Source of the DNA: an uncultured Bacteroidota bacterium
Lineage (GTDB): Bacteria > Bacteroidota > Bacteroidia > Chitinophagales > Chitinophagaceae
NCBI GenBank assembly: GCA_903839875.1
Contig: CAIMDZ010000025.1
Span: forward strand, 1 to 61,875
Length of the DNA stretch: 61,875 nucleotides
Direction of reading: 5' to 3'
A program made the translations under genes and the position numbers. The number at the start of each line of letters is the position of its first letter. Positions within the stretch are counted from its first letter, which is position 1. The notes beneath the pieces were generated by a model. That model saw nothing but the letters and a program-made list of their open reading frames with translations, was not told the origin of the DNA and made no database searches. Below, in pieces: positions 13,246-22,600 of the stretch.

Positions 13246-14175
13246 TCAACCCCTGCCCCGCCCATTCTGGAACAATTGCAATTCACACTCGCTTACGCCT
13301 ACAACAATCTTCTTCTGATCCCACACTTTATTGGCGTCATCATGAAGTTGCACGAAGTAAACGCCTTTGGGGTCTTTACGGGGATCAAATGATACCTGGA
13401 CCGTAAAACCAATTTTATCTATGATCTGGTCGGCTTCGATTTCCCGGTACAACTCTCCGTTTTCCCTGAATATTGAAAGCCGCATACGCCTGTAGCCATC
13501 TTCGGCGCCCCAATGCATGGTCACTATCACCTTTTCCCTGTCGGGCACCAGTACCAACTGTCCCGGCCGGTCATTCAGTTCATTTTCCACAAAATAATCC
13601 GGCATCCGGTTGTTTCTTAATGAGGCAATAAATTTCACAAGACTCTCCGACATCCGCGGATCCAGCGAAGAGTAAACAGTATTGATACATTTAAAATTGG
13701 TAAACACCCATACAGAGCACTGGGCAAGGTGCATCGAAATATTGTTTGCCTTCACAAAAGTCAGTGTTTTGATCAGCCCGCTATCACCCTGCCTCCAGAA
13801 CTTGTAGTGCAATCCGGCAAATGGGCCCTTTGCATAACTCTTACCACAGAAAGTTTGCAGGCTGAATTCCTTACACGAATTAGGAGTAAGCGCAATGGTT
13901 TCATTACCAAGCAGCACCAGGTTTTGATAGGTAGTATCTTCAGGAACGAAGATCAATGCGGGGTCTACATCCAGCTCCAGCTCAGTCTTAGTGTTATTTG
14001 CGAGTTCCAGTTTGATGCATTTGCCACAGGCGCCGCCGTTGCCCACTGCGTTAACAGAAACAAGTTTCGACGACATTGCTTTCTTCAATGTCATATGATT
14101 TGCGGATGCGCTGTACGAAATAATAACAGCACAACATGCAAGCATCATTGATTTCATGAATTGCAAACTGTACAT
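13246..14175 (-). CDS. Secreted hypothetical protein
   Basis: I do not recognise a named family. The 309-residue protein has an N-terminal signal peptide (from the internal Met at 14157: KSMMLACCAVIISYSASA), a cysteine-containing beta-rich first half ('GGACGKCIKLELANNT', 'ALTPNSCKEFSLQTFCGKS') and a second half that looks like a fibronectin- or sorting-domain-like fold ('LVLVPDREKVIVTMHW', 'RLSIFRENGELYREIEA', 'DPKGVYFVQLHD'). Either ATG (14175 or 14157) could be used. It lies about 150 bases from the left end of the transposon but outside it. Likely periplasmic or surface-exposed. Confidence 0.62.
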   Translation of the reverse strand: MYSLQFMKSMMLACCAVIISYSASANHMTLKKAMSSKLVSVNAVGNGGACGKCIKLELANNTKTELELDVDPALIFVPEDTTYQNLVLLGNETIALTPNSCKEFSLQTFCGKSYAKGPFAGLHYKFWRQGDSGLIKTLTFVKANNISMHLAQCSVWVFTNFKCINTVYSSLDPRMSESLVKFIASLRNNRMPDYFVENELNDRPGQLVLVPDREKVIVTMHWGAEDGYRRMRLSIFRENGELYREIEADQIIDKIGFTVQVSFDPRKDPKGVYFVQLHDDANKVWDQKKIVVGVSECELQLFQNGRGRG

Positions 14176-14313
14176 AGACGATGTATTTAATAATATTACG
14201 TAATTTACAAAGCATTATTGCATAATAGACTCACACGTTCGTTGTATTTATGTTAAGAAACAAAGACTACCAATGCGAATATATTACATTTATGTGTAGA
14301 AAGTGAATGGATG

Positions 14314-14321
14314 GTAAAATT
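14314..14321. repeat. Target-site duplication, left copy
   Basis: GTAAAATT directly abuts the left terminal inverted repeat at 14322 and is repeated exactly at 19585-19592 after the right end. An 8-bp duplication fits transposition by an IS1/IS1595-type DDE enzyme. Confidence 0.93.
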
Positions 14322-14367
14322 GGTAGTGTCTCAGTTTGAAAGTTAAAGTTTTTTAACAAATGGATTA
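14322..14367 (+). repeat. Left terminal inverted repeat (46 bp) of the transposon
   Basis: Starts GGTAGTGTCTCAGTTTGAAA and runs to ...ATGGATTA at 14367. The reverse complement is present without a mismatch at 19539-19584. Confidence 0.96.
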
Positions 14368-14379
14368 GAGTTGCCATAA

Positions 14380-14979
14380 TCAATTAGACAAAACAGCCAC
14401 AACGTTTACCACTACATCAATCGCGCTGTATGTAGATGGGTTTCTCATACCTAAATATAAGGTGGTACTTCTACTTGCATCTATGTCTAAATAGTTATTT
14501 ATGCCACCTCTGCGCCCTGCCAAGGTATATCTGGAATCATCAATCATCCAGTTACTTTCGGGCTGTTTATTAAGGAAATTATTCGCTCCATTTACATCAA
14601 CCATAAAAAACACATCAACTATATCCGTGCCGCTCGGAATAGTAATATGGTCTAAAACCTCTGACAATAATATGCCATCAGGAGTGCGGCTCTGACGCGC
14701 AATTTCAGAAGCGATGTACTTTGCAAGATTTAAACCCATGCTTGGGTCATAGCCTTTGCTACTTCTTACAGTCACAAACATACCTATTGTATTGCTTGGG
14801 TAAGTTAATGTCAATACTACTCTGCTTTTCCCGCCTTCAAGAAGAGAATTGGAGCCTGAATGTATGGTAAACGACTTATTTTGATATAGCGGTAAATATC
14901 TGTACTGTGCATTACACGTAAAGCAGGAAAGAATAAGAGTTACTAACGCTATTGCGCGGATTGTTTTTATCAGTTTCAT
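14380..14979 (-). CDS. Transposon passenger: secreted hypothetical protein
   Basis: The 199-residue protein starts with a signal peptide (MKLIKTIRAIALVTLILSC...CNAQ). The mature part is predicted beta-rich ('FTIHSGSNSLLEGGKSRVVL', 'LDHITIPSGTDIVDVFFMVD', 'YLDIDASRSTTLYLGMRNP') with no catalytic signature that I recognise. The stop lies 13 bases inside the left inverted repeat, so the gene fills the element's left edge. It may be cell-surface or periplasmic. No relation to the transposase is visible. Confidence 0.62.
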   Translation of the reverse strand: MKLIKTIRAIALVTLILSCFTCNAQYRYLPLYQNKSFTIHSGSNSLLEGGKSRVVLTLTYPSNTIGMFVTVRSSKGYDPSMGLNLAKYIASEIARQSRTPDGILLSEVLDHITIPSGTDIVDVFFMVDVNGANNFLNKQPESNWMIDDSRYTLAGRRGGINNYLDIDASRSTTLYLGMRNPSTYSAIDVVVNVVAVLSN

Positions 14980-15019
14980 TGTTGGATTGTTTAATTGACA
15001 ATGAAAGTAATATTATTTT

Positions 15020-15400
15020 CTAACTATGCTCTGGAACCATTTCCGCCGAACCTAAGTTTTTCTGAAATACATCATTTTTATATATGTCAAAGTATGTTGT
15101 TTTATCTTCGTCATGTATTCTCAAAGACCATACTCCGCGACCGAATTCGCCAACAACTTGGTATAAGAGAGGTAGGGCTGGATATGCAGGGTTTGGTCTG
15201 CTTGCTGCCTTTATAACCGAGTTATTATCGTTCCCTGTTATCATTCTGGCGTATCCATTAGTAGTGCCACCAAATGTGTAAGCTACATTACCTTCATCTA
15301 TAGAGAATGAAGGTGCAACATTGCGCCTGTACAAGTATATTGCTGTTGGTATAGCTATTAAAGCCCCGACAGCTATGGCAATTTTGCCTGTATTATCCAT
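15020..15400 (-). CDS. Transposon passenger: small single-helix membrane protein
   Basis: The 126-residue protein begins with a hydrophobic segment (KIAIAVGALIAIPTAIYLYRR) that would anchor it in the inner membrane, followed by a globular part ('SFSIDEGNVAYTFGG', 'GVWSLRIHDEDKTTYFDIYK'). It is the upstream neighbour, by 40 bases, of the secreted protein at 14380-14979 on the same strand, so they are probably expressed together. I do not recognise the family. Confidence 0.55.
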   Translation of the reverse strand: MDNTGKIAIAVGALIAIPTAIYLYRRNVAPSFSIDEGNVAYTFGGTTNGYARMITGNDNNSVIKAASRPNPAYPALPLLYQVVGEFGRGVWSLRIHDEDKTTYFDIYKNDVFQKNLGSAEMVPEHS

Positions 15401-15525
15401 AAGAATAATTTTTGTTTGAAAAATAAAGTAACTTTGTCCTGCTATGAGAGTGGAATTTTATAGCAAGATATTGGGTAGTTCAACGCTACCCATTTTCATT
15501 TTTACAAATATACAAAATGTATCCG

Positions 15526-15553
15526 ATTAAAAAAGGCTGCGATTGCAGCCTTT
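15526..15553 (-). terminator. Rho-independent terminator of the transposase gene
   Basis: A perfect 9-bp stem (AAAGGCTGC / GCAGCCTTT, 15532-15540 and 15545-15553, loop GATT on the plus strand) is followed on the minus strand by a run of T. It begins 3 bases after the transposase stop codon. Confidence 0.85.
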
Positions 15554-15555
15554 AA

Positions 15556-16302
15556 TCATTTACTCCCATACCGTCTTGCAAGACGCTTATTTTCCTGCTC
15601 TATTTCATCAGCATAAGCCAGCGTAACAATATCTTCAAGGCTGTATGGTCTGGTGGTTAATTTTGCCTCCATAGCAGGTGTAACACGCAGGGTCTTATGA
15701 ACCTTTACGAAGTTGTAATAAACGAAATGCAGGGCTATTGCATGGCAGTGATTTTCCATCTTCTTAGAGAAACCATTGGTAAGCCTTGTAAACCTACGCA
15801 TGTGCATACGCATGGTAAGGTTTTGACGCTCTATGTAGCTGGTAGAAATCAATGATTCGTCAGGGTCTCCAGATACCCATGTCTTTTTAATTCCTGTAAT
15901 CGTTGCCGGACTATATCTCTTTTCGTCCCCAGAGCCTTCTGGCGTACCGTAGGTCTTTACCAGTTGTGCAAAGTCTATTTCATCCTCAAAGGCATCTTCT
16001 ACGGCTTGCAGGTATAATTTCAATCCATCGGTAGTTAATTGCACTCTGTTCCTTAATCTACTGGCAACATCACGCATAAAGTCATTTGCTGAATAAGCAT
16101 CCCTGTAACCTACGAGCCACGAAACAATTAGCTTAGAGTCAGCATCAATACCAACCCACGTCCATGCGTCACCAATGGTTTCATCGTTGGGTTTTATAGT
16201 GAATGGAACATTCTTTTGTTTGGAATACACAAACGACCAGATTTCGTCACATTCAATACGATTTGACGGAACATGTACTACTGTATCGTTGTGGAATTTC
16301 AA
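15556..16302 (-). CDS. IS1-type DDE transposase (5' end unclear)
   Basis: The 248-residue reading holds the whole catalytic domain of transposases annotated as IS1 family: 'RIECDEIWSF' (Asp19), 'VQLTTDGLKLY' (Asp92) and 'STSYIERQNLTMRM' (Glu158), plus 'MRRFTRLTNGFSKK' and 'YYNFVKVHKTLRVTPAM'. It should cut and join the 46-bp ends. The first codon is TTG; similarity continues upstream in frame ('IWLEKVGYAC') to a TAA at 16360-16362, and beyond that 'IRKNFWIYKNYLLLKEI' is open. The normal N-terminal DNA-binding part of about 60 residues is therefore interrupted or encoded differently, so activity is uncertain. A terminator follows at 15526-15553. Confidence 0.85.
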   Translation of the reverse strand: MKFHNDTVVHVPSNRIECDEIWSFVYSKQKNVPFTIKPNDETIGDAWTWVGIDADSKLIVSWLVGYRDAYSANDFMRDVASRLRNRVQLTTDGLKLYLQAVEDAFEDEIDFAQLVKTYGTPEGSGDEKRYSPATITGIKKTWVSGDPDESLISTSYIERQNLTMRMHMRRFTRLTNGFSKKMENHCHAIALHFVYYNFVKVHKTLRVTPAMEAKLTTRPYSLEDIVTLAYADEIEQENKRLARRYGSK

Positions 16303-16425
16303 GCAGGCGTAGCCTACTTTTTCAAGCCAGATTTGCGGATTATCTCCAGATTTTTGGTTTTAAATTTCTTTTAACAGCAAATAGTTTTTGTAAATCCAAA
16401 AGTTCTTTCTAATTTTATCATATAG

Positions 16426-16498
16426 TACGCCCGTTCGGAGTCGAACCGAAATTTAAAGATTAGCAGTCATCTGTTCTGTCCACTTGAACTACAGGCGC
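16426..16498 (-). tRNA. tRNA-Asn-like gene with anticodon GCT
   Basis: On the minus strand a 73-nt cloverleaf can be drawn by hand: acceptor GCGCCTG/CGGGCGT (7 bp, two wobbles), D arm GTTC/GAAC, anticodon arm GATGA-CTGCTAA-TCTTT (one T-T mismatch), 4-nt variable loop, perfect T arm TTCGG-TTCGACT-CCGAA, discriminator A, no encoded CCA. The anticodon is GCT, which reads serine AGC/AGU codons, but the short variable loop is not that of a serine tRNA. The body (CTGTAGTTCA...GAAC...GACTG.TAATC) resembles bacterial tRNA-Asn, whose anticodon is GTT. It may be a recoded, cryptic or decayed tRNA carried by the transposon. Confidence 0.7.
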
Positions 16499-16510
16499 GT
16501 AAAGAGGTTA

Positions 16511-16538
16511 AACCATCTGTTAGAGCAGGTGGTTTTTT
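16511..16538 (+). terminator. Strong hairpin terminator inside the transposon
   Basis: AACCATCTG and CAGGTGGTT form a 9-bp stem (one G-T pair, loop TTAGAG), followed by T residues to 16538. It sits just beyond the 5' side of the tRNA-like gene and would stop plus-strand transcription arriving from the transposase region. Confidence 0.75.
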
Positions 16539-16626
16539 CTTTGTGGCAAGTTGCTCTTATGAGGTATCTATTTTCATTACAGTCGGTTTTTATGATGTGA
16601 GGATAAATACCTACCTTTACACCTGA

Positions 16627-16707
16627 ATGATTGAGGCTTGTCCTACGAACGATAGTTTCTCAACCATTCAAAATGTCAAGGCTATTTGCCCACTCCGATA
16701 CAAATGA
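16627..16707 (+). CDS. Possible 26-residue peptide ORF between two terminators
   Basis: ATG 16627 to TGA 16705-16707 encodes a 26-residue peptide containing 'ACPTNDSFSTIQNVKAICPL'. A weak -7 box (TACCTTTA, 16612-16619) lies 8 bases before it and a terminator follows at 16731-16759, so this 190-base gap looks like a small transcription unit. Whether the product is the peptide or a non-coding RNA cannot be decided from sequence alone. Confidence 0.3.
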   Translation: MIEACPTNDSFSTIQNVKAICPLRYK

Positions 16708-16730
16708 AGTCAAGCAAATATTTTCAAAAG

Positions 16731-16759
16731 AAGCCTGCCTAACGGTGGGCTTTTTTATT
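16731..16759 (+). terminator. Second plus-strand terminator inside the transposon
   Basis: AAGCCTGCC (16731-16739) pairs with GGTGGGCTT (16744-16752, two G-T pairs), loop TAAC, followed by TTTTATTT. No annotated plus-strand gene ends here, which argues for a short transcript in 16620-16750. Confidence 0.75.
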
Positions 16760-16806
16760 TAGAACACGAAGGTTGGATATGTATTTAGCACTTAGGGAAA
16801 ATTATG

Positions 16807-16986
16807 AGTAAAGGGGCAGAAGGGCAGAGTAAAGGGGCAGAAATCCTATTTTAGCTTAGTATTTAAGCCATCTACAAATTCATGTAACTCCTTGCCAGTA
16901 CTCATTCGTAGTTTTCTATTACGTTGTATAAGCCGAATATAATTTTTAAATTGCCCCTTTACTCCAAAATTAGTAAAGGGGCAGAA
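16807..16986 (+). repeat. AGTAAAGGGGCAGAA short repeat, three copies plus an inverted one
   Basis: Exact 15-base copies lie at 16807-16821, 16828-16842 and 16972-16986. An inverted, shortened copy at 16953-16963 (GCCCCTTTACT) pairs with the third copy to make an 11-bp stem. The array spans the 3' end of the gene at 16846-17853, so part of it is coding. Confidence 0.88.
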
Positions 16987-17853
16987 ATTATCCTCAATAT
17001 ATTGTTGATAATTTCTGTCGTAATTTAGTTTGATGTACTTTTTTCTGTGTAGTAAAAAAATCAGATAACATACGGCTGGCTTATTACTTTCTGTTACTTT
17101 GACTTTCGAGCCGTCATTTTCTCCAATAAGGAAATCAACAAAATCATTTGGCTTATTCACATATTCGTTAAGCTCTAAAAATGCTATTAGCTTTTTGTGC
17201 TGCACATCTGTAATAATCCTTCTGAACTTTTGCTTTGGAATAACATCTGGTTCTTTATGTGTAATTAATTGCTTTCGGGATGCTTTAGAAAGATTCTCTT
17301 TTTCAGGCTCCTTTGACTGGATAGTTGATGGTAATTCAATATCACTGTTTGTATCTGTATGCGATATAACAGGCTGTGTAGGGGTTACTTTATTCTGTGA
17401 TAAAATAGATATGACACTTTTCTTTATTTGGTCTAATAATGGCTCGATAATTTTATTTAATTCTGGGTCATTATCAATTAAGAGTTGGTCTGTAAGATGC
17501 TCTTCTATAAATGAATGTGAATAAACCACATTTTCTGTATCAATAGCTGATTTTAATTCTATCAATTGGAAGGCTTTCATGTAAGCCATTAATTTTTCTT
17601 TATAGTATTCAATCTTGTCTTCGGAAATATCCGCCAACCAATTACTTAGGTTATCAGTAGCTACCTTAGTGGCATCTTCAAGTAAGATTACTTTTTTGTG
17701 GTAAGGCGCTTTTGAAAACTCGTCAGCAGTAATATTTCTGCCAGAAATAGACAGCTCTAACAGTAGTTGCCTAAACGTATATTCTTCAGGTGGAATTGAT
17801 GCCATTTTAAAGGCAACTTCAACGTATTCTAATATGTCCACTAAATTAGGCAT
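16846..17853 (-). CDS. Transposon passenger: hypothetical protein, 335 aa
   Basis: I do not recognise the family. The protein has an N-terminal helical region (MPNLVDILEYVEVAFKM...), a middle section around residues 150-205 rich in Thr, Ser, Pro and Lys that looks like a flexible linker, and a C-terminal basic domain from about residue 210 ('QKFRRIITDVQHKKLIAFLE', 'KPAVCYLIFLLHRKKYIKL', 'NYIRLIQRNRKLRM') that could bind nucleic acid. The 3' end runs into the 15-base repeat array. It is the largest passenger gene. A role in the element's regulation or mobility is possible but only suggested by position. Confidence 0.6.
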   Translation of the reverse strand: MPNLVDILEYVEVAFKMASIPPEEYTFRQLLLELSISGRNITADEFSKAPYHKKVILLEDATKVATDNLSNWLADISEDKIEYYKEKLMAYMKAFQLIELKSAIDTENVVYSHSFIEEHLTDQLLIDNDPELNKIIEPLLDQIKKSVISILSQNKVTPTQPVISHTDTNSDIELPSTIQSKEPEKENLSKASRKQLITHKEPDVIPKQKFRRIITDVQHKKLIAFLELNEYVNKPNDFVDFLIGENDGSKVKVTESNKPAVCYLIFLLHRKKYIKLNYDRNYQQYIEDNFCPFTNFGVKGQFKNYIRLIQRNRKLRMSTGKELHEFVDGLNTKLK

Positions 17854-18031
17854 TGCATTATTTAAAATTTTAAGTCTTTTACCCGTAACTACATATTACT
17901 AAACTGATTACTTTTGTATTATTAGCTTCAAAGCTAATTAACAGAGTTGATTTTACATAAAACAAACAAGCTATGATTATATAAAAAAAAGGAAAATACT
18001 ACATACAGATTTTGTATTGTACCATTTAGTT

Positions 18032-18141
18032 GCTGCTCTAAATCTCGAAAATTTAAAACATCTCGCAACAAATGACTACGGTACGCCACATGGCGTAACT
18101 GTGTCTTTTGCGAGAAAGGGCTTTCGAGAGCCTTGAGCAGC
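18032..18141 (+). ncRNA. Nested-helix structured RNA / 5' leader
   Basis: Four perfectly complementary pairs are nested like shells: GCTGCTC 18032-18038 with GAGCAGC 18135-18141; TCTCGAAA 18043-18050 with TTTCGAGA 18122-18129; TCTCGCAA 18061-18068 with TTGCGAGA 18108-18115; TACGCC 18082-18087 with GGCGTA 18092-18097 closing loop ACAT. Together they make one long interrupted hairpin of 29 bp in 110 bases, 55 bases before the ATG at 18197. It could be a leader controlling the lipoprotein gene, a transposon-encoded small RNA, or a remnant of a retro-element RNA. I recognise no known class. The rest of 17854-18196 is AT-rich without a gene. Confidence 0.65.
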
Positions 18142-18196
18142 GGGAGAATTTCGGTTACGCTATTTTATTGCTCACAATCATAAAAAACAATCAAAA

Positions 18197-18775
18197 ATGA
18201 AACAGACAATCAAAATGACAGCATTATTTGTAATGCTAATTGCATCTTTAGGAAGCTGCACAAAAGGCGACAAAGGTGATACTGGAACAAATGGAGCACC
18301 CGGAACAAATGGAACCAACGGTCAAGATGGAACAAATGGAACTAATGGCGTAAATGGAATTAATGGGAACGCGAATGTTCACACAGACCAATTTGCTGTA
18401 ACAGCAGCTAATTGGGGATGGGTAGGCAGTCCGACATATGGTAATTATGTTACCCTGAACGCAACCAAAGTAACTCAACATGTTTTAGACTATGGAGTGG
18501 TATCCGTGTTTTATAGTAATGGCTCTGGTGGATGGGTAGCAATTCCATTTACAAATTATTTTGGCACAAATTTATCTTATACATTAGATGCCGTAAGTAG
18601 CCTTAGTACGGTAACTTTATGGTTGTTCCGCTCCGACTATGTACAAAATTCCGCTCCATATACTACCTCAACCTTTAAAGTAGTCGCTATTGATGGGTCT
18701 CTAAAGCAGTCGCACCCACACACTAATTGGAAAAACTACGACGAAGTGGAGAGTGTAATAAATGAAATTAATTAA
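18197..18775 (+). CDS. Transposon passenger: collagen-like lipoprotein
   Basis: The 192-residue protein has a lipoprotein-type signal ending in 'LIASLGSC', so the cysteine is probably lipidated. Immediately after comes a collagen-like stretch of glycine-X-Y triplets ('GDKGDTGTNGAPGTNG' and onward, about 12 triplets, rich in Asn and Thr), then a globular C-terminal domain of about 120 residues ('AANWGWVGSPTYGNYVTL', 'VTLWLFRSDYV'). Such lipoproteins are common in Bacteroidota and probably sit on the outer membrane. The gene follows the structured RNA at 18032-18141 and leads a row of three plus-strand genes. Confidence 0.72.
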   Translation: MKQTIKMTALFVMLIASLGSCTKGDKGDTGTNGAPGTNGTNGQDGTNGTNGVNGINGNANVHTDQFAVTAANWGWVGSPTYGNYVTLNATKVTQHVLDYGVVSVFYSNGSGGWVAIPFTNYFGTNLSYTLDAVSSLSTVTLWLFRSDYVQNSAPYTTSTFKVVAIDGSLKQSHPHTNWKNYDEVESVINEIN

Positions 18776-18796
18776 ATATACACTAAACTCATAGAA

Positions 18797-19177
18797 ATGA
18801 AAAAAGCTCAGGCGCAAATAAAAAAGAAAACAACGGCTAATCCTAAGCCAGTAAAACATGAAAAAGATTATGCTGAAACATTAGCCTTAAAAACCACTAA
18901 GGATACAATTGCTATAATCAAACAATGGGTAGAGAAATATTCAGTAGTTGGTATTATAGATTATACGAATTGGTTTATTGGGGTTTCGGATAAAGAAGTA
19001 ACCACAAAAGGTTTAAACCACTTGCTTAGTCGTTACGCCGAAAGTAAACACATCTCATTGGCAATAGAAAAATATTTTCATGATAAAGGTATGGGAATAG
19101 AAGATTTCAAAGGTAGCCTTTCAGAAAAATCAGCTTACGTTTATATTCACAAAATACATAAAGGTTTATTAGAATGA
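18797..19177 (+). CDS. Transposon passenger: hypothetical protein, 126 aa
   Basis: A basic N-terminal segment (KKAQAQIKKKTTANPKPVKHEK) is followed by a helical domain ('LKTTKDTIAIIKQWVEKYSV', 'LNHLLSRYAESKHISLAIEK', 'DKGMGIEDFKGSLSEKSAY'). No membrane segment or known motif. It lies 21 bases after the lipoprotein gene and overlaps the next ORF by four bases (ATGA), so it is translated as part of a small operon. Unknown function. Confidence 0.5.
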   Translation: MKKAQAQIKKKTTANPKPVKHEKDYAETLALKTTKDTIAIIKQWVEKYSVVGIIDYTNWFIGVSDKEVTTKGLNHLLSRYAESKHISLAIEKYFHDKGMGIEDFKGSLSEKSAYVYIHKIHKGLLE

Positions 19178-19374
19178 AAAAGACGCAACACATAGCAAAA
19201 CCGAATTATTTTATGAATTACGGAGAGTTAATCCCTGCGACACCTGAAATGTTTGTATCTATTGAAGAATTCAGTAGGAGTATACGGGTTTACGAAGGTA
19301 CAGCGCGGATAAAGGCACAGAATAGCATCTTGCGTTATAAGGGGTTTGCTCAACGGAAACAAAATGCTTCTTAA
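19174..19374 (+). CDS. Transposon passenger: hypothetical protein, 66 aa
   Basis: A short basic protein containing 'NYGELIPATPEMFVSIEEFS' and 'GTARIKAQNSILRYKGF'. Its ATG overlaps the upstream stop codon, indicating translational coupling. I do not recognise it. Confidence 0.45.
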   Translation: MKKTQHIAKPNYFMNYGELIPATPEMFVSIEEFSRSIRVYEGTARIKAQNSILRYKGFAQRKQNAS

Positions 19375-19377
19375 TTT

Positions 19378-19524
19378 TTACAAGGTTCTTTTCTTTTTAC
19401 CAGAATGAGGTTTCGCCTGTGTCGTAATTGGCTCTTCCGTAACTTCACCTGTGGATATGTCAGCTATTAGTTTTGCCAGCTTGTTTATATCTTTGGGACG
19501 GGATGGATTACCTTTCTTTGCCAT
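19378..19524 (-). CDS. Transposon passenger: small lysine-rich protein, 48 aa
   Basis: ATG on the minus strand at 19524 and TAA at 19378-19380 enclose a 48-residue protein beginning 'MAKKGNPSRPKDINKLAKLI' and ending 'HSGKKKRTL'. The N-terminal 'RPKDINxLAxxIxDISTGE' pattern occurs in a group of small basic proteins of bacterial mobile and accessory DNA, of unknown function. It starts 15 bases inside the right inverted repeat and converges on the gene at 19174-19374. Confidence 0.5.
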   Translation of the reverse strand: MAKKGNPSRPKDINKLAKLIADISTGEVTEEPITTQAKPHSGKKKRTL

Positions 19525-19538
19525 GCCACAAAGTTAGG

Positions 19539-19584
19539 TAATCCATTTGTTAAAAAACTTTAACTTTCAAACTGAGACACTACC
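19539..19584 (-). repeat. Right terminal inverted repeat (46 bp) of the transposon
   Basis: Exact reverse complement of 14322-14367, ending ...GAGACACTACC at 19584. Confidence 0.96.
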
Positions 19585-19592
19585 GTAAAATT
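19585..19592. repeat. Target-site duplication, right copy
   Basis: GTAAAATT, identical to 14314-14321, directly follows the right inverted repeat, 45 bases before the mfd start codon. Confidence 0.93.
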
Positions 19593-19637
19593 CATTTGAG
19601 GTTACAAATTCCCAATTTCCCTTAACTTCGCCCCCCG

Positions 19638-22600
19638 ATGAACCTGGAAGTGCTGCAGGGCTTGTACCAAAATGACATCCGCATAAAACAAATTGCGGCG
19701 GGGATCACTTTGCCCGGCCATAAGTTAAGGGTCTATTTAGACAATCTCCGGGGCTCTTCCATCAACTTTATTGCAACTGCACTTTGGCAAAATACGGACG
19801 TTAACCATGTCTTCATTCTGAATGACAAAGAAGAAGCCGCCTATTTTCATAACGACATTGAACACCTGACTAAAGGTCTGGACATTTTCTTTTTTCCCGA
19901 TTCTTTTAAACGGACCGGTTATTTCAACGAACTGAACAGCAGCCATGTGATGCTGCGCACCGAGGCGCTTACAAAGTTCACCGGCAAAAAAGTAAATAAA
20001 AAAGTACTCGTCACTTATCCTGAAGCCCTGTTTGAGCAGGTGGTGAATCCCACATCGCTCACCAGGAATATGATCAGCATTAAGGTAGGCGAAACACTGG
20101 ATGTGGATGATTTACTGGAACGGTTTGTTTCTCTGGGTTTCAGGCGGGAAGATTTTGTTTATGAACCCGGCCAGTTTGCCATGCGCGGCGGCATACTGGA
20201 TATTTACTCATTCGGAAATGAACATCCGTACCGTATTGAATTGTTTGATACAGAAGTTGACAGCATACGCATTTTCAATCCTGAGACCCAGCTCTCTGAG
20301 CGCAAACTGCTCCAGGTTTCAATACTCCCCAACATAGAAACAAAATTTGAAACCCAGGAAAAAATATCACTCCTCGATTACCTTCCGGAGAATACAATCA
20401 TCTGGGCTAAAGACCTTGCATTCACTTTAGGCCGCCTTTCAAAAATGGCAGGAGATCTCCCGGAGAAAATGGAGATAGGCCAGGTGGCTATTGACCATGA
20501 GGAGGAAATGCTGAAAGAGATATCCAAAGCGGATTTTGAAACCGGAAATGACTGGCAGGAAAAAATCAAGAACAGGCACCTTATTGAATGGTATAACCAT
20601 TCACTGGCCAAAATAACCGGCGATGAGATTGATGCTACCTTTCTGTTTGCAACCGACGAACAACCGGTTTTCAACAGGCAGTTCAATATGCTGATCAGTG
20701 ATCTGCAAAAAAAGACTACGGAAAAATATGTGGCCTATATTTTTGCTGAAAACCCTAAACAACTGGAAAGGCTGCGCAGCATATTTGATGATGTAAATGC
20801 CAACATTAATTTCGTACCCATACCCACCGCAATAAGCAAGGGTTTTATAGACCATGAGAAAAAGGTGATCTGCTATACCGACCACCAGATCTTTCAGCGG
20901 TATCATAAATTTAATGTAAAACAGGCCTATTCCAAAGGTAAGGCGCTAACACTGCGGGCGTTGCGGGAATTAACTCCCGGTGATTTTGTAACGCACATAG
21001 ACCATGGTGTAGGCGTATACAGCGGTCTGCAGAAGATAGAAGTGAATGGCAGCATGCAGGAAGCCATACGCATATTGTACAAAGACAATGACGTACTGTA
21101 TGTGAACATCAACTCGCTGCATAAAATCAGCAAGTACACCGGTAAGGAAGGCACTTCGCCGCGTGTAAATAAGCTGGGAAGTGACGCATGGCAAAAGCTG
21201 AAAAACAAGACCAAAAAGCATGTTAAGGATATAGCCGCTGACCTTATTAAACTCTACGCTACCCGTAAAGCATCACAGGGGTTTGCGTTTTCTCCCGATA
21301 GTTACCTGCAGACAGAGCTGGAAGCATCCTTCTTTTATGAAGATACTCCGGACCAGGGCAAGGCTACAGCCGATGTCAAAAGAGATATGGAATCACCGGC
21401 GCCTATGGATCGTTTGATCTGCGGCGATGTAGGTTTTGGTAAAACAGAAATTGCAGTACGTGCTGCATTCAAAGCCGTGGCCGACAGCAAACAGGCTGCA
21501 ATACTGGTTCCTACAACCATTCTTGCCTTCCAGCACTACAATACATTCATGGAACGCCTGATAGATTTTCCATGTAATGTAGATTATATCAACAGGTTCA
21601 GATCGGCAAAGGAAAAAAAGGAGATACTGAAAAAGCTGGAGGAAGGGAAGATAGACATCATCATAGGTACCCACGGACTGCTCGGCAAGGATGTGAAGTT
21701 CAAAGATCTCGGGATACTGATAATTGATGAGGAACAGAAATTCGGTGTTACGTCAAAAGAAAAATTAAGAACACTGAAGGCGAGTGTGGATACGCTCACG
21801 CTCACAGCGACACCTATTCCGCGCACATTGCAATTCTCGCTCATGAACGCGCGCGACCTCAGCATCATCAACACCCCGCCACCAAACCGGCAACCGGTGC
21901 AGACAGAAGTTCTGGCGTTTGATGAATACATAATACGCGATGCCATCTACTATGAAGCGGAAAGAGGCGGGCAGGTTTTCTTTGTCCACAACCGTGTTCA
22001 GAGCCTGCCTGAAATGGTAACGCTGTTGCGCAACCTTTGCCCCGACCTGCGTATAGGCATGGCACACGGACAAATGGAAGGCCACCTTCTGGAAGAAGCG
22101 CTGTATAAGTTTATCGAAAAAGAGTATGACGTTTTGTGCTGTACCAACATCGTAGAAAGCGGTGTGGACATAGCAAACGCAAATACCATCATCATCAACA
22201 ATGCCCACCAGTTCGGGCTCAGCGACCTGCACCAGTTGCGCGGCCGGGTTGGCCGAAGCAACAAAAAAGCATTTTGTTACCTCATCGCCCCCCCTATGAG
22301 CCTGCTCCCGGCCGATAGCCGTAAGCGGTTACAAACACTTGAACAGTTCAATGAACTGGGCAGCGGTTTCCAGATAGCTATGCGCGACCTGGATATTCGC
22401 GGAGCAGGAAACCTGCTGGGCGGCGAACAGAGCGGGTTTATTGCCGAGATAGGATTTGAGATGTATCAAAAGATACTGGGCGAAGCAATGCGTGAATTGA
22501 AAACAACCGATTTTAAAGACGTATTTAAAGAGGAACTGGAACGTAAGAAAGATTTTGTAAACGACTGCACCATAGATACCGACCTGGAAATACTGATCCC

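Follow-up and report, generated by a model that had tools for sequence, protein, structure and literature searches.

The subject of this analysis is a transposon of 5,263 bp in contig CAIMDZ010000025.1 (assembly GCA_903839875.1) of an uncultured member of the Chitinophagaceae (Bacteroidota), all 61,875 nt of which we refer to as the window. The element is one member of a compact, widespread type of IS1-like cargo transposon, and a structured RNA of about 160 nt lies directly ahead of its gene for a collagen-like lipoprotein. This leader RNA is real, with very strong covariation and no Rfam match, and it conserves two pairings that exclude each other. A cargo transposon carrying a two-state leader RNA is, in our judgment, the probable overall explanation of these observations. 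With somewhat less assurance, though still leaning in its favor, we propose that the RNA represents an uncatalogued class of two-state leaders serving as a portable expression-control unit in the mobilome of one Bacteroidota family, through which a shared host signal would silence or release newly acquired cargo. The RNA, its helices and the gene that follows it are:

18012-18171, plus strand: structured leader RNA (covariance model, covariation, folding)
18032-18038 with 18135-18141: helix H1
18043-18050 with 18122-18129: helix H2
18061-18068 with 18108-18115: helix H3
18082-18087 with 18092-18097: helix H4
18093-18101 with 18152-18160: helix H5
18119-18122 with 18129-18132: helix H6
18197-18775, plus strand: 192-aa collagen-like lipoprotein with lipobox LGSC, preceded by the leader RNA

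A structured RNA had been listed in the element by an earlier sequence-only reading, and covariation and folding both bear it out. The window copy retains every helix (folding z -4.99), and the same stretch recurs in two related loci, before a collagen-like gene in L003 and before an unrelated gene in L005. In an alignment of eight copies, 94.7% of cells are paired and 22 of 32 pairs have changed on both sides, a result matched by 0 of 500 shuffles, with slid helices reaching 31-39%. When the alignment is extended to 36 copies, H1-H4 are paired in 96.5% of cells with 24 of 29 pairs changed on both sides (shuffles 0/500, slid 29-41%), H5 in 97.5% with 5 of 9 (shuffles 3/500, slid 17-48%), and H6 in 93.7% with 2 of 4 (shuffles 12/500, slid up to 68%). 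The tRNA is the only feature of the window to reach an Rfam gathering score; further Rfam searches returned nothing overlapping 18012-18171 (E up to 5) and nothing on the corresponding stretches of L003 and L005 (E up to 2). Neither the leader RNA nor the transposon group is described in the titles and abstract openings of the literature surveyed, and a published description of the uncatalogued RNA is possible.

The RNA is concentrated in the genus and family of its host. Counting the host's own genome throughout, a covariance-model search of the genus yields 33 copies, L003 and L005 among them, spread over 17 of its 35 genomes; a first model finds the RNA in 2 of 295 genomes of the class, and a second model in 19 of 117 genomes of the family and 6 of 395 of the phylum. 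The host genome has two more copies, at 7697-7858 of L107 (contig C154) and 2327-2489 of L108 (contig C11), of which one neighbors an IS1595 transposase and the other adjoins genes for a tyrosine integrase and an excisionase-like protein. In a single genome (G803), five weak matches that resemble one another (L232-L236, 49-54 bits) are perhaps a separate subclass. The weak matches as a whole (L232-L241, 43-54 bits) have no consistent gene downstream and could represent a distant class or be due in part to chance. One further match (L248, 45 bits) was set aside as resembling coding sequence, and it was left out alongside L156, where the RNA is cut at a contig edge.

The case for two states comes from the overlap of the helices. 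H4 and H5 share the strand GCGUA and are therefore mutually exclusive, and H6 overlaps the 3' strand of H2. Among the 59 copies with letters on both sides, 56 can form both H4 (at least 5 of 6 pairs) and H5 (at least 7 of 9). Where the shared strand reads GGUGUA (L109, L152, and L231), all three copies have UACAC as the partner strand of H5, and the H4 partner is altered in two of them and a wobble in the third. L246, a distant copy at 53 bits, can be read with H4 as GCGUCC/GGACGC and with an H5 that ends in GCGUCC directly followed by seven U. Because both exclusive pairings are conserved, we read the RNA as an attenuator-like portable leader for mobile cargo. Fold A would consist of H1-H4, forming one long hairpin, and fold B of H5 and H6, with H5 capturing the strand it has in common with H4 and H6 capturing the 3' strand of H2. 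Since H5 ends just ahead of a U-rich stretch, fold B has the look of an intrinsic terminator and fold A that of an antiterminator; a run of at least five U within the last 22 nt is found in 24 of 36 copies, which makes the terminator reading fair, not universal. Mean energies with either fold enforced are -54.0 kcal/mol for A and -46.2 kcal/mol for B over 36 copies, and -54.8 and -50.0 in the window.

The position of the RNA relative to genes is equally regular. In 34 of 36 copies the RNA and the downstream gene share a strand, the other two being L156, which ends at the contig edge, and L147, in which our rule yields no open reading frame (ORF). The next start codon follows the end of the RNA model by a median of 22 nt and by 14-43 nt in 31 of 34 cases. 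By our hydropathy rule, 28 of these 34 downstream genes encode a hydrophobic N-terminus, compared with 49 of 118 other nearby ORFs, and a lipobox-like motif occurs in 11 of 34 compared with 12 of 118. Among the strong copies from the family the next gene is hydrophobic at its N-terminus in 10 of 13, including an acyltransferase and a GDSL lipase. Homologues of the window's collagen-like lipoprotein stand behind the same leader RNA in L003, L145, and L227.

Mobility genes accompany many copies. A marker lies within 6 kb in 30 of 59 contexts (IS1-like in 7, IS1595 in 17, integrase or excisionase in 6) and within 1.5 kb in 17 of 59, compared with 0 of 29 loci around mfd; as mfd is a housekeeping gene, this control is a soft one. 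Elements with matching ends and an 8-bp duplication enclose four of the copies: those of the window and L135 are IS1-like, and those of L133 and L148 have other ends and an IS1595 transposase. L034 has IS1-like ends and lacks the duplication. A 2.2-kb stretch of L142 (3933-6169, reverse) has near-perfect inverted ends and a 7-bp duplication and holds the RNA with a gene for a membrane protein of 75 aa; no transposase was picked up there in the marker search, and the stretch is maybe a non-autonomous carrier.

Taken together, these observations suggest the following model. The IS1-like DDE transposase would act on the 46-bp ends to move the element, and the window copy, having lost its helix-turn-helix (HTH) domain, would depend on a transposase from elsewhere. 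The cargo module would comprise the leader RNA and, 25 nt on, the gene for the collagen-like surface lipoprotein. The RNA would hold cargo expression low or conditional, by attenuating transcription or by blocking translation, until a signal favors fold A and the cargo is released. In this family, mobile elements of different kinds have the same RNA ahead of different envelope or secreted proteins. Switching between the folds, the terminator role, the signal, the benefit, and the function of the cargo are all parts of this model deduced from comparison of sequences. Mobile cargo needs to be expressed in a new host without harm and, if the model is true, a control RNA common to different mobile elements would be a general answer to this problem. 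A leader that precedes mostly surface or secreted proteins would also offer a testable handle on the function of orphan cargo.

Several observations weigh against a switching leader. Support for H5 is weaker than for H1-H3, and that for H6 weaker still; the alignments were fitted to H1-H4, which favors those helices, with H5 and H6 outside the model. Fold A is on average about 8 kcal/mol more favorable than fold B, and three of the 59 copies (L233, L235, and L237), each a weak match, cannot form one of the two pairings. The U-run is shorter than five in 12 of 36 copies, two of which are cut off, and in the window it is broken (UAUUUUAUU). Six of 34 downstream genes, and 3 of 13 among the strong family copies, encode no hydrophobic N-terminus; by eye, the exceptions include response-regulator-like (L135 and L144) and winged-helix-like (L107 and L136) proteins. 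No recognized transposase or integrase lies within 6 kb in 29 of 59 contexts. Translation control would account for the narrow distance to the start codon just as well as attenuation would, and H5 could form beside H1-H3 as a pseudoknot. The rival that builds on this last point makes the RNA a constitutive, non-switching 5'-UTR (untranslated region) pseudoknot of H1-H3 with H5, which stabilizes the messenger or presents the start site and so secures expression of foreign cargo whatever the host. Both the start-codon spacing and the pairing of H5 in 97.5% of cells beside H1-H3 would suit it; however, H4 is also conserved and has five bases in common with H5, and the window's linker between H1 and H5 (18142-18151) is just 10 nt, by our judgment of the geometry short for a span across three stacked helices. 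We consider this rival unlikely, though worth keeping in mind.

Other rivals dispense with the leader altogether. So structured an RNA could act alone, and fold B ends in a terminator-like stem, as would suit a free, trans-acting small RNA with a mere neighbor downstream; this is quite improbable when set against a same-strand downstream gene in 34 of 36 copies, its narrow spacing and its biased type. The stretch might instead be an attC-like site of recombination or cassette exchange that moves cargo genes between elements, a reading to which its occurrence beside different genes in IS1-like, IS1595, and integrase contexts lends some weight, and the H5 strands GCGTAAC/GTTACGC are reminiscent of the R'' and R' boxes of attC. 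The bases between the H5 strands, however, pair upstream and not with one another as in an attC hairpin, and 34 of 36 copies have the stretch ahead of a start codon in the coding orientation, which leaves this reading highly improbable. Scarcely credible, finally, is an ordinary transposon with decaying cargo in which the RNA and a tRNA-like gene are functionless hitchhikers: the loss of the transposase HTH, the short form of a gene at the element's end and the mostly orphan cargo would agree with decay, but the window RNA is intact in every helix and the lipoprotein gene, which keeps an open frame, has homologues that follow the same RNA. We retain the cargo transposon with a two-state leader RNA as the preferred reading.

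The element that carries the RNA is sharply delimited, and lies in the gap ahead of mfd:

14314-14321, no strand: target duplication, left copy, GTAAAATT (sequence comparison)
14322-14367, plus strand: left terminal inverted repeat, 46 bp, 100% complementary to 19539-19584
15556-16302, minus strand: IS1-like DDE transposase lacking the N-terminal HTH (Pfam DDE_Tnp_IS1, 28.3 bits, cut-off 24.1)
19378-19524, minus strand: hallmark end gene, 48-aa short form (RPxDxNxLAKxIxDIxTGE; C-terminal GGLKGGKARA part absent; tblastn with relatives)
19539-19584, minus strand: right terminal inverted repeat, 46 bp, complementary to the left end
19585-19592, no strand: target duplication, right copy, GTAAAATT (sequence comparison)

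The exact 46-bp repeats and 8-bp duplication claimed in the sequence-only reading hold at every position: the repeats 14322-14367 and 19539-19584 are complementary at 46 of 46 positions and the duplication is identical at 8 of 8; the runner-up inverted repeat in 14000-20000 has 23 nt at 74%. An imperfect inverted repeat at 19503-19546 (18-nt arms, 89%) links the inner end of the right repeat with the start of the 48-aa gene and could be an operator. The G+C content of the element is 36.7%, compared with 45.2% and 40.9% in the 10-kb flanks. To its left is a minus-strand gene (13246-14175), and to its right mfd begins at 19638. Of the 35 genomes in the genus, 33 gave a match to the start of mfd, and we examined 29 relatives' mfd loci, each with about 1.5 kb or less upstream of the gene. 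In 4 of 29 a homologue of the left gene is divergent from mfd with the element absent, the gap measuring 165 bp (L178), 169 bp (L168 and L173), or 670 bp (L169); the window's gap minus the element is 191 bp. In the other 25 no homologue of the left gene was seen within the examined upstream stretch. The comparison of relatives that had been proposed thus yields four element-free loci, which show the empty-site arrangement and not an identical empty target.

The proposed search with the 46-bp ends had a divided outcome: at up to three mismatches there is no further site in the host's genome or in 59 others (60 genomes searched), and 34 other elements have similar ends. These emerged from a scan with the window transposase, which found nine relatives in genomes that include uncultured Bacteroidetes, Mucilaginibacter, and Nitrospinota, Proteobacteria, and Patescibacteria metagenome-assembled genomes, at least 78 loci in viral contigs, 5 plasmids (E 1e-30), and matches in 10 of 395 genomes of the phylum, the host included (E 1e-40). 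Of 91 loci inspected for ends (L080 was left out as a duplicate of L047), 35, the window included, are elements with GGTAGTGnnTCAGTTTG-like ends (up to three mismatches) and a target duplication, exact over 8 bp in 34 and 7 of 8 in one; alternative pairings of ends gave an 8/8 duplication in 0 of 14 cases. The remaining loci lack such an end pair or the duplication, several being interrupted by contig ends. The 34 other elements span 1.9-5.3 kb, with a median of 3.0 kb. A view of the element as an isolated oddity is not supported, since it belongs to a wide group, and the simple IS1 of less than 1 kb is an unsuitable standard of comparison, given how common relatives with cargo are.

In 32 of the 35 elements, the space that separates one end from the transposase holds a small hallmark gene on the transposase strand, with the consensus KRPxDxNQLAKxIVDIATGE ... 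GGLKGGKARA ... EIAKKAAxRW; four of the 32 carriers were seeds of the hidden Markov model used to find it, in which the window's 48-aa sequence was itself included. Three of three hallmark proteins tested have no Pfam match. For the window's short form tblastn finds relatives, for example one in L135 that is 69% identical over 26 aa. This gene inside the right end, the recurrence of tRNA-like genes and the presence of the RNA in other mobile elements had been overlooked in the sequence-only reading, the list of which had been sound for a tRNA-like gene and an RNA in this element.

The single IS1-type transposase and at least seven passenger ORFs reported for the element are present (passengers of 48-335 aa), with the correction that the transposase ORF is incomplete. 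Its product is 51-67% identical to those of six relatives (L003-L008). All seven proteins tested, from the window and six relatives, reach the Pfam DDE_Tnp_IS1 cut-off; IS1 is also the best NCBIfam match, though none of the seven attains its cut-off of 100 (window 35.8; relatives 62.8-82.1); the NCBIfam matches start at profile position 43-44, and the relatives' transposase is a single ORF. The relatives have an HTH-like N-terminus (MNKL...LLVEGxSLRxxSRIADVSINTVTKLLVDVG), with weak, below-cut-off matches to HTH_38 or HTH_Tnp_IS1 in 3 of 6. A profile of the transposase has 10 matches in 7 of 35 genomes of the genus, eight beginning at position 1 and that of the window at position 40, from which it follows that the window copy can hardly move by itself. 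The missing HTH was sought by tblastn with the first 60 residues of four relatives, which recovered only residues 40-60 of two (E below 1); an HTH encoded in another frame was rejected, two chance-level matches being all that appeared beyond these residues. The window copy thus lacks the complete transposase that an autonomous transposon requires and is probably not self-mobile now, and we infer that it moved before the HTH was lost or was moved in trans. The recent insertion suggested earlier remains plausible from the perfect ends and duplication, for a copy that would hardly be self-mobile at present. Elsewhere in the host genome, contig C99 (21677-21850) has a C-terminal remnant (profile 227-284) of another IS1-like transposase of the group.

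The remaining passengers of the window element, besides the lipoprotein and the end gene, are:

14380-14979, minus strand: 199-aa ORF, signal-peptide-like N-terminus by eye, no family
15020-15400, minus strand: 126-aa ORF, hydrophobic N-terminus by eye, no family above cut-off
16846-17853, minus strand: 335-aa orphan ORF, no family match
18797-19177, plus strand: 126-aa ORF, no family above cut-off
19174-19374, plus strand: 66-aa ORF

The window cargo is mostly orphan, in keeping with the unassigned cargo that had been reported, since no cargo ORF has a family above cut-off. The sole match is that of the collagen repeats, just under the Pfam cut-off (26.9 compared with 27.2 bits), and a sequence comparison of the collagen-like protein with solved structures was convincing for these repeats only; for its role we favor a putative change of the envelope or exclusion. 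Homologues of the 199-aa, the first 126-aa (15020-15400), and the 335-aa ORFs were absent from the loci compared; among the 34 other genomes of the genus, a single one yielded a partial match to the 335-aa ORF (27%, over residues 209-326).

Comparison of cargo between copies, also proposed earlier, sets the window apart from relatives that carry HTH-IrrE genes. The 34 other elements contain 110 passenger ORFs of at least 70 aa, of which 72, chosen by length and position, were scanned with five from the window. IrrE/M78 peptidase domains are present in 11 of these 77 proteins. Among the PADLOC matches listed, which overlap and are drawn from 25 of 208 families, the best single RmrA model matches 10 proteins, PD-Lambda-2_B 9, capP 8, and capH 4; among the NCBIfam matches listed (25 of 49) are the spr1629-type antitoxin (9), SocA (1), and PtuA (1). 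RosmerTA, which pairs an ImmA-type antitoxin with varied toxins, and PD-lambda-2 are published anti-phage toxin-antitoxin systems (PMC10440598, PMC9519451). Part of the group is therefore a vehicle for toxin-antitoxin or defence modules. Across several phyla, and in viral contigs as well, the group thereby brings anti-phage toxin-antitoxin cargo together with compact IS1-like elements, and it may be a route for moving defence genes.

Between the transposase and the 335-aa ORF lies one further feature:

16425-16498, minus strand: tRNA-like gene, anticodon GCU, short variable arm (ARAGORN and the Rfam tRNA model)

Two programs agree on this gene, which had also been reported before: ARAGORN calls it and the Rfam tRNA model scores it at 56.2 bits (gathering 29) over 74 nt. 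It is directly upstream of the transposase on the same strand. Genuine tRNA-Ser is a class II tRNA with a long variable arm, and identification as such is disfavored by the short variable arm (74 nt, to which the tRNA model fits without a long arm). A tRNA-like gene before the transposase is recurrent in the group: counting those on its strand and no more than 450 nt upstream, default ARAGORN finds one in 6 of 91 loci, compared with 0 of 91 downstream slices, and the Rfam model, run on the window, nine other loci and 50 viral records, adds L006 (37.2 bits) and L066 (48.0 bits) for 8 of 91. The L066 gene (6841-6939), in which 32 nt replace the anticodon loop, is inside a duplication-verified element; in the 50 viral records no Rfam match falls inside the element. 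ARAGORN relaxed to 80% and 65% was discarded as useless, because the downstream control slices gave nearly as many matches (upstream and control, 17 vs 10 and 112 vs 97). In L090 an ARAGORN tRNA lies further out, and related stretches are visible by eye in L079, L086, and L100. The anticodons are odd where called (GCU, ACU, UUA, and ACA), and the anticodon stems of the window and L005 genes each read, by eye, with one mismatch. Short inverted repeats seen by eye surround the tRNA-like genes in L005 (3055-3150) and L078 (6646-6738); such flanking repeats would extend the acceptor stem, an argument against ordinary tRNA processing. Near the tRNA-like stretch of L086 (3376-3448) is a YrlA-like RNA (2779-2910; 40.4 bits, gathering 69), upstream of a distant IS1-like transposase on a viral contig.

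Among known systems, the IS1 family is a close parallel for the transposase. IS1 elements generate target duplications of 8-9 bp and encode two ORFs joined by a frameshift, with an N-terminal zinc finger. The window group resembles them in the Pfam DDE_Tnp_IS1 match, the best NCBIfam match and the 8-bp duplications, exact in the window and 33 others and 7 of 8 in one, but differs in falling below the NCBIfam IS1 cut-off, in its 46-bp ends and cargo, and in its single ORF, the IS1 match of which begins only at position 43-44. Some RNA copies adjoin IS1595 transposases (Pfam PF12762), whereas the window transposase is IS1-like and has no IS1595 match in Pfam or NCBIfam. As in riboswitch and attenuator leaders, the window RNA is a 5' leader with two exclusive pairings, both conserved, and one stem before a U-rich stretch, although a run of at least five U is present in just 24 of 36 copies and is broken in the window; unlike them, it has no Rfam match, precedes varied genes and travels with mobile elements. 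The Transposase-resistance motif of a 2010 list of candidate RNAs, entered there without an Rfam number, may be comparable in that its name ties it to transposases and cargo (PMC2864571). RosmerTA and PD-lambda-2 find their likeness in the HTH-IrrE cargo genes of the element's relatives, the window cargo differing in having no such Pfam or NCBIfam match. A close parallel for the element as a whole is the transporter insertion sequence (tIS), defined as an insertion sequence derivative with passenger genes (PMC9330008). The window element, with one transposase and passengers inside inverted ends flanked by a target duplication, has what defines a tIS, and to that description its group adds a recurrent architecture, a hallmark end gene, toxin-antitoxin cargo in relatives and, in some members, a tRNA-like gene or leader RNA.

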